A stretch of 64,000 nucleotides of DNA from Scytalidium lignicola (Eukaryota; Ascomycota; Leotiomycetes), in NCBI GenBank assembly GCA_002812745.2, contig NCSJ02000205.1, positions 1 to 64,000 of the forward strand. Direction: 5' to 3'. Position numbers and translations under genes: made by a program. The notes beneath the pieces were generated by a model. It was not told the origin of the DNA. It was given only the letters and a program-made list of their open reading frames with translations, and ran no database searches. Positions within the stretch are counted from its first letter, which is position 1; every line of letters begins with the position of its first letter. This document shows positions 50,367 through 63,973 of the stretch, piece by piece.

Positions 50367-52247
50367 TCACCAGATAGACACTCCAGCCCTCGGTTCAGCT
50401 GCAGAACTTCTGTTACTAGCTAGTCGTCGATTGCTAAACATATACCAGAGCATTTGCCCAGCAACCAGAACCAATCCTGTTGATGCAAACGCCAGCATTA
50501 TAGTGAAGGCACGGTGGTAGAGAGGTGCATCATCAGCGCGAAAGAATTGTCCACCAATAACCCCACCACAGTTGGCGGCCATGATAACCATGCTACAAAC
50601 AACAATATTAGCTAAAAGTTTAGAAAATGGTTGGACAGAACTGACGCCATGGCAAGACTTCGTTGTTGTGGACTTGTACAATTTAATGACAACCAACCAA
50701 TGTTAATAACGCTTTGATGAGGGTTTAAGTTAGCTGTCAGTCTAGCAAAAAGGCACATATACAAGCTTACTGTACAACTGAGTTCGTACCATTGGCCGCG
50801 ATGACTGCTGCATACCGATTCCACTTATTCATGGTGGGTGGTGTTTGCCTTAAGCACACATATGATATGATACCCCACAGAGCACCGATCAGTGCAAATG
50901 GGCCACGACGCTCGGTATAATCACTGTGTAAACAAGATATACGTTAGTTGGGAGGTCAATGTGATAACTAGCTATATCTTGGAGAGGGTTGACAAAAGAA
51001 GGAAGACTTACGCCGCGAGTCCAAGGATGAGAACGAGAATAATGGAGATGAAGAACCCGACAGAGTATAGAGCGTTGGCATGTACTGCAGTAAATCCCAA
51101 GCTCTTCACGATACTGGGCCCGTAGGTCTGAAGCGCGCTTGTCGGGGAGTTCACGAGGATGGCGATGAGCACATGACACCATATATATGGCTTCTTCATT
51201 GTATCAACGATGTCGTGTCTACTGATCTCGATCTTTCCTTTAGCTTTCGCAGGGTCGTCGAGGAGAACGCGGCTGGTGCAAATGTGAAGTTCACGGTCGG
51301 TGAAGTAACTCCATCGGCCGCGACTGACCAAGGGAGAACCATCGGTGACACTCGCAGGGAAGTATAGCATGAAGACGACTCCAATACAGACGGTTATGAT
51401 GCCTTCGACTGTAGACAATCAATTAGTCTTAGTAGATTCCCAACCTCTACTTTTAACTCACTCATGAATAGCCACTTCCATCCAGCAATACCATACCGCC
51501 CTGACATAGAGAGAATACCGGCTCCAATAAGAGATATAGTTGCGGCTGCGAGCAGATTTCCAACGAAGAAAACAGATACACGAAAGCTGGTTTCAGACTT
51601 CTTGTACCAATTGGACATGGTATACAGTGCACCTATCCACGTTGTAAATATTGATAGAGATGTGACTAGTGATGGTATTGACATACCTGGAATGAATCCT
51701 GCCTCACAGAGTCCCAATAACAGCCTTGTAGCAATATAGCTCCCGAAATTCGTGATAAAGAGTTGAAATGTTGCAACCAGNCCCCCAGCAGATGATCTGC
51801 CCTGCTAACCACCGCTGTGGACCAACCTACCATGCCATGTCAGCCAAAACACATGATTATAAAAGCAGCCATATTTTTAAACCTTCTGAAGTAAAATATT
51901 GGAGGGAATTTCAATAATAATAATGCCACATGACAAAAGTTGGGTGCCAATGTTGATTTGGTTTGTGGTAATACCCAGGTCATGAGTGATGGTATCTGTC
52001 AAGGCATTTGCAATATTTCCCCTATCCATTTGAAGTGCGAAGAAGGAGAGCCCTAGGAGAGGAAGGATAATGAAGTCAATCCTATTTCTGTGAGCCCAAT
52101 GCTCTGCAACAGTTGGCAAAGCAAAGATGATTACTTTCGTTTGACGGCCCTCTCCTCGTCAGCTGTCCAATCTACCTGGGCCAAACCTTCATCGCCTGAC
52201 TTTATGGCGACGATGTTTTCGACTCTTTCAGTGCTTGGCTTGTCCAT
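50367..52247 (-). CDS. MFS transporter, anion:cation symporter (Dal5-like) family
   Basis: Seven exons: 52135-52247, 51883-52087, 51462-51826, 51012-51408, 50771-50923, 50646-50711, 50367-50592. N51781, beside a C5 run, must be deleted (CWG-LVATFQL). All phases then match and give 507 aa. Features: DFIILPLLGLSFFALQMDRGNIANA at the first transmembrane segment, PSNILLQKVGPQRWL (motif A region), GLCEAGFIPG, an MSNWYKKSE loop, and NCGGVIGGQFFRADDAPLYHR near the end. These are hallmarks of the Dal5/allantoate-nicotinate-tartrate permease family, importers of organic anions; related bacterial members carry hexuronates. Divergent from sulfatase 1, so possibly the importer of a sulfated or acidic substrate. 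Confidence 0.9.
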
Positions 52248-53000
52248 AATGCTAATATCCCCGCTCCTTGTCGTTCTAGGTTCGTGAGCAATGTTGGTGG
52301 TTTGTTCAATGGTATTTGTATAATTTGGTCGCTACGTAAATAGGGTCAAAGAGGCGTATATGTACATGAAGCAACCCAAGCAGTCGATATCATATCATCG
52401 CATCAACCCCATCGCCTCTCGGCAGGAGATGCAGAGAGAAGCGGGAGTTCATGTTTCGATTCTAAATCCTACTTTTGATGCGCTTACACCCAGCCGCTGT
52501 CGGTTAGACTTCCGTGGCGCTTNCCCCCCCCCTAATTCAATCTTTCCCGTAGTCTTTGATAGTCTTTGATTCTCCCGAAGTGTGAGGGGATATTGCGGGG
52601 GATCAAATGCGGGGTTAGACTTAGATACTGGACACATAAACCGCTCCTTGGCAGTCACGAAATCATAGGGGGCCATTGGATACATTGGGAAACGATGAAG
52701 TCCTAGCTCAACTAGCTTAAAGTGGCACAGTACTCCTCTCCTCCCTCCATGATGCTCGCTCGGGTCTGCTTCAGCGAGAAAAGATTCTCAATTTCAAGCC
52801 ATCGGCTGTTGATAGAGCGAGAGCGGTTCATTCGTGGTAGGGAGGAACCGGGATTCTTGACAGAAGAAGTGGAATGTAAAGAGCTACCCGGACGAGACCT
52901 TTTGAAGTTTCATGTTATTAGGACGCTCCCCCCCTTCACTCTATTCTTCAACAAGACGCACTCATTATTCCTGAGACCTTGATTTTCAAACTTTATCAAC
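52248..53000. promoter_or_regulatory. Divergent transporter/sulfatase 1 promoter
   Basis: 753 bp. Contains two GCGGGG hexamers 14 bp apart (52595-52600 and 52609-52614) that fit the carbon-catabolite repressor CreA consensus SYGGRG, and an N next to a C9 run (52523). A single hexamer of this consensus is expected about every 256 bp on two strands, so only the close pair is notable. Confidence 0.4.
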
Positions 53001-62043: not shown

Positions 62044-63973
62044 ATGCAGCCAACACCATCCACGAGGCCAAACTTTCTCATTATCGTTGCAGATGATCTT
62101 GGGTTCAGTGATATTGGGCCTTATGGCTCCGAAATTCATACCCCGAACCTCGAGAAGTTAGCTCGAGACGGGATTCGAATGACAAACTTCCATACAGCAG
62201 CAGCATGCTCACCTACCCGTTCAATGCTTTTTTCTGGAACCGATAATCATATTGCAGGTTTAGGTCAAATGATGGAATATATGATGCCCTTCAAGGAATA
62301 TTTCGAGAACAAACCAGGCTATGAAGGTTACCTTAATTGGAGGGTAGCTGCTCTTTCTGAAATTCTAGAGGATGGTGGCTACTTTACCTTGATGTCTGGG
62401 AAATGGTGCTTCAAACCTAGTTTGGATATGCTTTATGAGACTAAAATTGATAACCAGGCACCTCGGACTTACGAAAGAGCTCGCACCTTGCTCTAGAGGT
62501 TTCACAAAAAACTTCTCATTCCTTCCAGGCGCCGGAAACCACCATGGATATGAGCCACAGCTTGATGATGACGTATATTTCCCTGCTCTCAAAACTGATG
62601 GCCACTGGATGGAAGGGGAAGAGTTTATTAACCATAGAACTCAACTTCCAAAAGATTTTTATTCAACGGTCTCGTTTACCGACAAGCTAATTCAATTCCT
62701 GAAGGAGAGGACGGATGAAGAGAAAGATCAACCGTTCTTTGCTTATCTACCATTTACAGCACCACACTGGCCTCTACAAGCACCAAAGCATGTGATTAAA
62801 AAGTATGGTAAGAAACTGAAGCAAAGTGATAATATAAGCTTTCTCTTTTAACATATATTTATAGCTGGCAAATATGATGGTGGCCCCGATGAGCTTACGA
62901 AGTCGCGCCTTCGTCGATTAGTTGAACTTGGGTTAGTAGAAGAAGGCATAGCAACGGCACCTCCAGTTGGAGCACGAACACGACCAAAAGAATGGAGCGA
63001 TATGACTGTAGAAGAACGAGCCCGGTCTTCGCGCACAATGGAAGTTTTCGCCGCTATGGTTGAAATAATTGACGAGAGTGTTGGCCGCGTTATTGAACTC
63101 CTCGAGTCAACCAAAGAATTAGACAATACCTTTGTTATATTCATGTCAGATAACGGTGCTGAAGGAGCTACTTTGGAAGCGGTACCAGTAAGTAATTCCG
63201 CACTCTCCGTACTTTTACACGATTCTAATTATATGTAGATCATGGGTGGCACTAAAACCATGAGCTCTATTTTCGAGAAATATTATAATAATAATCTCGN
63301 AAAATATCGGCGAGCCAGATTCATTTATGTGGTACGGTAGGTAGTTATCGTTTCATCTAATACGCTTTCTGTATATGGAAATGATTCATCCGTATATAAT
63401 AATACTAATTTTCGAGTACTTGTAGGACCACGATGGGCATGTGCTGCTACAGCTCCTTCTCGCGGCATCAAATCTTGGGTCACCGAGGGAGGTATTCGAT
63501 GCCCATGTCTAATCCGCTATCCACCGTTCAACTCTATTCCCAATGCTATTAGTCATTCATTCACCACCGTGATGGATATCTTACCCACCATCCTTGATCT
63601 AGCTGGTATACAACATCCCGGAGAGATGTTCCGCAACCGACCAGTAGTCAAACCGCGCGGCAAATCATGGATTCCACACCTCTCATCGATGGATTATAGC
63701 AAGACGACAGTCCATGGCGAAGACGCACACATACATGGCTGGGAATTCCTCAACCAGAGAGCTATCAGAGAAGGTAAATGGAAGGCAATATGGCTTAGCC
63801 ATCCAAGAGGTAAAGACGACTGGGAATTGTATAATGTTGAAGACGATCCATCAGAGTTACACGATCGTTCCAGCGAGGAGCCAGAATTGCTTAAACGGCT
63901 TGTCGTTCATTGGGAGCAATATTATGCGGAGACTGGTATGATTCAAACACCAATGTTTCGCCTTCACGCATAG
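62044..63973 (+). CDS. Sulfatase 2, AtsA-like formylglycine-dependent arylsulfatase
   Basis: Five exons: 62044-62405, 62458-62807, 62865-63187, 63239-63336, 63426-63973. N63300, beside an A4 run, must be deleted ([13 protein letters not shown]). This gives 559 aa, nearly the length of sulfatase 1. Motifs: [14 protein letters not shown] at Cys55, the intron-split [51 protein letters not shown]. Intron positions differ from sulfatase 1 (the first intron of that gene is absent here), so the duplication is not recent. No signal peptide ([14 protein letters not shown]). Divergence around the active site suggests a different sulfate position or sugar. Ends about 30 bp before the window edge. Confidence 0.94.

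Follow-up and report, generated by a model that had tools for sequence, protein, structure and literature searches.

Scytalidium lignicola DSM 105466, a fungus isolated from leaf litter of Quercus robur (PMC6256649), carries on contig NCSJ02000205.1 (C117; 77,039 bases) a row of five consecutive multi-exon genes at positions 50367-63973. They encode, in order, a carrier of the major facilitator superfamily (MFS; minus strand), a sulfatase (S1; plus strand), a glycoside hydrolase (GH) of family 78 (minus strand), an MFS carrier of the Sugar_tr type (plus strand) and a second sulfatase (S2; plus strand). The stretch of DNA analysed, called the window below, comprises the first 64,000 bases of this contig in an assembly of 46.85 Mb and 664 contigs, which differs from the published draft set of 826 contigs, 47.7 Mb and 97.6% BUSCO, assembled from Ion Torrent reads with MIRA (PMC6256649). 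The features of the locus are as follows.

50367-52247, minus strand: MFS carrier, putatively of the Dal5/allantoate-permease (ACS) type; 8 exons, N 51781 in exon 3; MFS_1, E 3e-32.
52248-53000: upstream region shared by the divergent carrier/S1 pair; 753 bp, without an exact ATGRYRYCAT.
53001-54800, plus strand: predicted sulfatase S1; 560 aa, 3 exons; CSPTR at residues 51-55; PF00884.
54886-57691, minus strand: predicted GH78 alpha-L-rhamnosidase; 918 aa, 2 exons; GH78 Pfam domains and a match to 6gsz.
59042-61022, plus strand: Sugar_tr MFS carrier; 527 aa, 7 exons, N 59950 intronic; PF00083, E 1e-81.
61390-61625: dispersed repeat resembling a miniature inverted-repeat transposable element; contains inverted repeats and separates S2 from the sugar carrier gene.
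62044-63973, plus strand: predicted sulfatase S2; about 559 aa, 5 exons, N 63300 in exon 4; CSPTR at residues 55-59.

The gene models are sequence-based: introns were set by hand at GT...AG ends with protein families as guide, and full-length genes are supported by Pfam and PDB comparisons. The first carrier and S1 diverge from the 753-bp region, S1 and the GH78 gene converge with 85 bp between their ends, the GH78 gene and the sugar carrier gene diverge across 1350 bp, and 1021 bp separate the sugar carrier gene from S2. The original prediction had described five consecutive intact genes, including the convergent pair 85 bp apart. The gene models confirm this spacing together with all five genes, their order and their orientation, and the families that it named are borne out by Pfam, PDB and homologue matches; the word intact has to be qualified at two of the single Ns. 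Five such Ns lie in 50-64 kb (51781, 52523, 58578, 59950 and 63300), all five adjoining homopolymer runs; of the 29 Ns in the whole window, 19 directly adjoin a homopolymer of at least four bases. Counting the N as a base shifts the reading frame in two genes, the MFS carrier (51781) and S2 (63300). Ion Torrent data are known for homopolymer-linked uncertainty. Since homopolymers adjoin these two Ns and the assembly is of the Ion Torrent/MIRA kind, they are probably assembly uncertainty rather than real frame breaks.

Both sulfatases resemble the Pseudomonas aeruginosa arylsulfatase (PAS), S1 over its full length (E 1.4e-217, residues 1-547) and S2 over residues 6-551 (E 7e-191), and they are 51% identical to each other over 552 aa. 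Each contains the metal Asp pair, CSPTR, GKWHLG, APHW and SDNG, and a Lys aligned to the PAS position. With all checked motifs present, S1 and S2 are, as judged from their sequences, PAS-type arylsulfatases (family S1, S1_4-like). In a genome search with S1, in which all 11 first-look candidates were scored, close PAS-type sulfatases amounted to four genes at three loci, namely C117 (S1 and S2) and contigs C111 and C335, and C636 gave weak matches only. The paralogs on C111 and C335 also have CSPTR, and further PF00884 matches lie elsewhere in the genome.

The GH78 gene product matches the domain series PF08531, PF05592, PF17389 and PF17390 over cut-offs, along with a Rha78A-like N-terminal Ig domain, and aligns near end to end (E 1e-219) with 6gsz, the closest solved GH78 by sequence, which we take to be from Aspergillus terreus. 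In this alignment TDCPQR-x-ERLGW-x-GD, WERWD and FNHY are kept, and the catalytic acid/base motifs (TDCPQRSERLGWLGD, WERWD, FNHY) are in place, the residues presumably having the roles of their counterparts in SaRha78A. Its domains and motifs being complete, the product is predicted to be a member of the GH78 alpha-L-rhamnosidase family. Between the GH78 gene and the sugar carrier gene, at 58257-58307, two perfectly matching 15-nt inverted arms enclose a 21-nt spacer.

The deposited S. lignicola entry for the first carrier, hypothetical protein B7463_g8875 (labelled 'partial'), is identical to the hand model except that 29 residues around the N are omitted and there are three fewer at the last intron. 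The original prediction had called this carrier organic-anion-type, and the label gains support from a homologue search (query residues 225-300 only, 30 candidates), in which, of the four foreign matches, two Daldinia proteins carry the name putative allantoate permease and the other two the name MFS general substrate transporter. With MFS_1 over cut-off and these names, the carrier is a putative member of the Dal5 family.

Where would these enzymes act? N-terminal hydropathy, taken as the highest value of any 12-aa stretch within residues 1-28 (a simple measure, not a trained predictor), is 0.43 for the GH78 protein and 1.67 for S1 and S2, beginning at the FLIIVADD strand, compared with 2.59 and 2.56 for the signal-like starts of a GH106 relative and a GH28 protein encoded on C335. 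By this measure S1, S2 and the GH78 protein have no signal-peptide-like start, which points to import first and cleavage inside the cell. It also supports the earlier suggestion that the substrate is a small sulfated rhamnoside rather than a polymer.

The association of sulfatase and rhamnosidase genes recurs on C335, where a GH28 gene, a GH106 relative, a PAS-type sulfatase gene and a Sugar_tr carrier gene lie side by side at about 5,080-15,760.

C335, about 5,080-6,640: GH28 gene; approximate, not a full gene model.
C335, about 7,730-10,900, minus strand: GH106 relative; 58.5 bits for the joined pieces against a cut-off of 29, middle piece alone 35.6.
C335, about 11,700-13,430, plus strand: PAS-type sulfatase gene, adjoining the GH106 relative.
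C335, about 14,190-15,760: Sugar_tr carrier gene, downstream of the sulfatase gene.

The first piece of the GH28 gene weakly matches endo-xylogalacturonan hydrolase A. Genome-wide, GH78 matches are found on C117, C165 and, weakly, C181, and GH106 matches at three loci (C335, C197 and C387); an alpha-rhamnosidase-family gene adjoins a PAS-type sulfatase gene at two of the three loci of the latter, GH78 on C117 and the GH106 relative on C335. The loci around C636, C477, C652, C165 and C181 were compared by tblastn. If genes were placed at random, at least one of the five other rhamnosidase loci would fall within 5 kb of the two other PAS-type loci with a chance of about 0.0025 (0.0020 without the weak C181 match), a figure that takes no account of the clustering of carbohydrate genes; C117 was left out of this calculation because it was the given locus. 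The theme of sulfatase with alpha-rhamnosidase, on which the original prediction was built, is thus supported by its recurrence with a different rhamnosidase family. A sugar carrier gene also lies near all three PAS-type loci (about 5.5 kb from the sulfatase gene on C111), an observation of uncertain weight, since scoring covered 9 of 627 Sugar_tr candidates.

From the anatomy of the locus and the recurrence on C335 we propose, tentatively and at somewhat less than an even chance, that the five genes form a catabolic group for small sulfated, rhamnose-bearing molecules. We infer their joint action, with its substrate, directions of transport and intracellular site, as follows: the Dal5-type carrier would import the small sulfated molecules, the two PAS-type sulfatases would take off sulfate and the GH78 enzyme rhamnose inside the cell, and glycosides or sugars freed outside would enter through the sugar carrier. 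The freed sulfate would enter sulfur assimilation and the freed rhamnose a pathway encoded elsewhere, for which C10 has the best L-rhamnonate dehydratase candidate (a fragment with 236.5 bits to NF011968, whose curated whole-protein cut-off is 393; three candidates were examined of the six MR_MLE_C loci above cut-off). Since the strain comes from oak leaf litter, ulvan is an unlikely substrate, and for such a fungus sulfated phenolic or flavonoid rhamnosides are a likely substrate class.

Besides the carbohydrate-gene clustering just mentioned, several points weigh against this proposal. MR_MLE_C, the dehydratase family, has no match on C117 or C335, and no pathway regulator was recognised beside the five genes. 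A dispersed repeat (61390-61625; 58 genome match rows including its own copy, some copies giving several rows) separates the sugar carrier from S2, so that S2 may have joined the group later. On C335 the middle piece of the GH106 relative has no PDB match, so that Pfam is what carries the assignment of rhamnosidase activity there. At C111, the third PAS-type locus, the whole contig is without a GH78 or GH106 match, and no rhamnosidase gene was noticed in the listed 18 kb around its sulfatase gene. Four of the six rhamnosidase loci are on contigs without a sulfatase match, and the GH78 match on C181, one of these four, is weak, other GH families matching there too, below their cut-offs.

A serious rival, which comes close behind and which we rate as a real though lesser possibility, is sulfur scavenging, in which organosulfate uptake by the Dal5-type carrier and cleavage by S1, perhaps with S2, would provide sulfate when sulfur is limiting; the GH78 and sugar carrier genes would be chance neighbours or would serve for plant glycosides. 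PAS-type enzymes act on aryl sulfates. The closest bacterial relative among the 80 loci kept of 303, from Sphingobium cyanobacteriorum, has 53% identity, the next having 34%, and the neighbourhood of this sole locus above 50% identity, the one that was read, contains two TauD dioxygenases, an ABC importer and an FMN dehydrogenase. Because the nearest relative sits with TauD dioxygenases and an ABC importer, sulfur scavenging is suggested as an older role, a further point against the catabolic proposal; viral contigs, searched in addition, contained no relatives. Against scavenging, no TauD gene was noticed beside S1 or S2 in a by-eye look. Among fungi, the available text of PMC5303821 describes Soa1, a Dal5-family importer of sulfate, sulfonates and choline sulfate, as well as the synteny of SOA2 and BDS1 in Saccharomyces, a precedent for a Dal5-family carrier gene beside a sulfatase gene. 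The likeness to the carrier/S1 pair fits scavenging as well as it fits rhamnoside catabolism, and it is limited to the adjoining of the two genes, BDS1, unlike S1 and S2, not being of the PAS type. The BDS1 sulfatase is of the metallo-beta-lactamase type, and we know of no rhamnosidase or sugar carrier gene at the SOA2-BDS1 locus. PMC5857272 cites a work whose title gives BDS1 an alkyl specificity. A further point against scavenging is the PAS-type sulfatase gene that lies beside GH106, GH28 and sugar carrier genes on C335. It also gains nothing from ATGRYRYCAT, which we take to be the CYS-3-type site: no exact copy lies upstream of any of the five genes, including the 753-bp region. The whole window has two copies against 1.54 expected, one of them in the cluster region inside an exon of the carrier gene; the exact motif being no commoner in the window than in shuffles, CYS-3-type regulation was rejected.

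It is improbable that the locus serves plain plant-rhamnoside catabolism, in which the GH78 enzyme and the sugar carrier would work as a pair on flavonoid glycosides of leaf litter and the sulfatase genes would be unrelated residents of a repeat-bearing region. This would agree with 6gsz as the closest solved GH78 by sequence, with the divergence of the two genes across their shared 1350 bp, with the origin of the strain (PMC6256649), and with the AT-rich island at 42-48 kb and the dispersed repeat at 61390-61625; however, the pair is flanked by sulfatase genes on both sides, and a sulfatase gene and a rhamnosidase-family gene recur together on C335.

Degradation of a sulfated polysaccharide (ulvan or sulfated rhamnogalacturonan), with C117 as the intracellular end and C335 as the extracellular start, is very improbable: C335 does combine GH28 and a GH106 relative, both with signal-like N-termini, with a PAS-type sulfatase and a sugar carrier, but the strain is terrestrial, S1 and S2 lack signal-peptide-like starts, the GH88/GH105 matches (6 match rows in the genome) are on contigs other than C117, C111 and C335, and no polysaccharide lyase was recognised by eye in 50-77 kb of C117, where no lyase-family profile search was made. 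Beyond the window, to the end of the contig at 77039, no lyase, GH105 or rhamnose gene was recognised by eye among the listed open reading frames. Ulvan degradation was therefore rejected as the leading reading, and the analogy with ulvan loci drawn in the original prediction found no support in this leaf-litter strain, whose GH88/GH105 rows and best L-rhamnonate dehydratase candidate lie on other contigs.

Other features lie around the five genes. Just past them, on the minus strand of C117 at 66436-71208, is an open frame of 1590 aa with many ankyrin repeats, and the open reading frame upstream of it is NACHT-like by eye. Before them, an AT-rich island at 42001-48000 has 25-28% GC in 2-kb steps, compared with 37-54% in the others, and ends at a Tc1-like helix-turn-helix fragment (47937-48551) below the Pfam cut-off. 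The window also contains a chromate transporter family gene (PF02417) at 39946-41184 and two alpha/beta-hydrolase-like genes, at 18164-19225 and 31866-32846, which are similar by eye and about 12.6 kb apart.

The CSPTR motif raises the question of how these sulfatases are matured. A profile search for the formylglycine-generating enzyme (FGE; PF03781) gave no match in the genome at E 0.001. At a loose threshold it gave only two pieces, on C78 downstream of ergothioneine-type methyltransferase pieces (37.2 bits with neighbours), which indicates that the search can, just barely, detect a divergent FGE domain. The radical-SAM profile of the anaerobic sulfatase-maturating enzyme (anSME; TIGR03942) had one genome match, 33.1 bits against a cut-off of 349, and none over the cut-off. 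Genome-wide, no FGE was thus found beyond the ergothioneine-type domain in a six-frame search, which is blind to introns, so that an intron-dense FGE could escape it. Fungal arylsulfatases apparently lack formylglycine according to the available part of PMC5857272, and the parts consulted of PMC5915273, PMC4659905, PMC5066984 and PMC3920027 give background on FGE domains, sulfatase classes and maturation. P. aeruginosa AtsA, which is PAS and which the available text of PMC5066984 places in SulfAtlas S1_4, is like S1 and S2 in full-length similarity and motifs; the fungal genes differ in being duplicated, in having carbohydrate genes as neighbours and in the lack of any FGE found beyond the ergothioneine-type domain. 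A wider reading, unlikely when all its parts are taken jointly, would combine these observations: a recurrent module of sulfatase, alpha-L-rhamnosidase and carrier, with intracellular GH78 on C117 and secreted GH106/GH28 on C335, would be the eukaryotic counterpart of bacterial sulfated-rhamnose loci, and its Cys-type sulfatases, with no recognisable FGE, would be matured by an unknown route or be active without formylglycine.

Bacterial utilisation loci for ulvan and rhamnan bring together sulfatase, alpha-L-rhamnosidase and transport genes. Sulfated rhamnosides as a substrate class are familiar mainly from marine bacteria. The available text of PMC8857213 describes users of sulfated methyl-pentoses in Verrucomicrobiota. 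The S. lignicola loci are like the bacterial sulfated-rhamnose loci in the adjacency of sulfatase, alpha-L-rhamnosidase and transport genes, the first two being 85 bp apart on C117 and adjacent on C335, whereas C117 differs in its multi-exon genes, its MFS carriers, the absence of signal-like starts, the lack of a recognised lyase or GH105 and its terrestrial host. Rhamnose genes of Aspergillus comprise alpha-rhamnosidases, called extracellular, and the LRA pathway, according to the available parts of PMC7532622 and PMC9699597. S. lignicola likewise has an alpha-rhamnosidase and a candidate downstream pathway gene (on C10), but its GH78 protein has no signal-like start and is encoded among sulfatase genes; an L-rhamnonate dehydratase gene, as would be expected of a fungal LRA cluster, was not found on C117, which has no MR_MLE_C match. 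Fusarium proliferatum LE1, whose alpha-L-fucosidase and arylsulfatase act on fucoidan (Shvetsova 2015, cited in PMC5857272), is also a fungus with a deoxyhexosidase and an arylsulfatase; it differs in that the sugar is fucose, and the citing text, as far as available, mentions no gene cluster. A marine-fungus study (PMC8351168) connects both GH78 and GH105 with ulvan and gives counts of sulfatases in fungi; its available part reports no such cluster.

The families are individually known: sulfatases and Dal5-type carriers in fungi are described in the available parts of PMC5857272 and PMC5303821. GH78 enzymes are likewise known in fungi, as the 6gsz match and general knowledge of the family indicate. 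A literature search, which does not speak for the literature as a whole, found no fungal sulfatase-rhamnosidase cluster, and the plausibly new element is the grouping of PAS-type sulfatases, a GH78 enzyme and carriers. With four Cys-type PAS relatives in a genome where no FGE or anSME was found save the ergothioneine-type domain, the locus offers a defined case for the formylglycine question. If the proposed catabolic role is true, leaf-litter fungi would own gene groups for sulfated rhamnosides, and measuring the pools of sulfated glycosides on land would become worthwhile.

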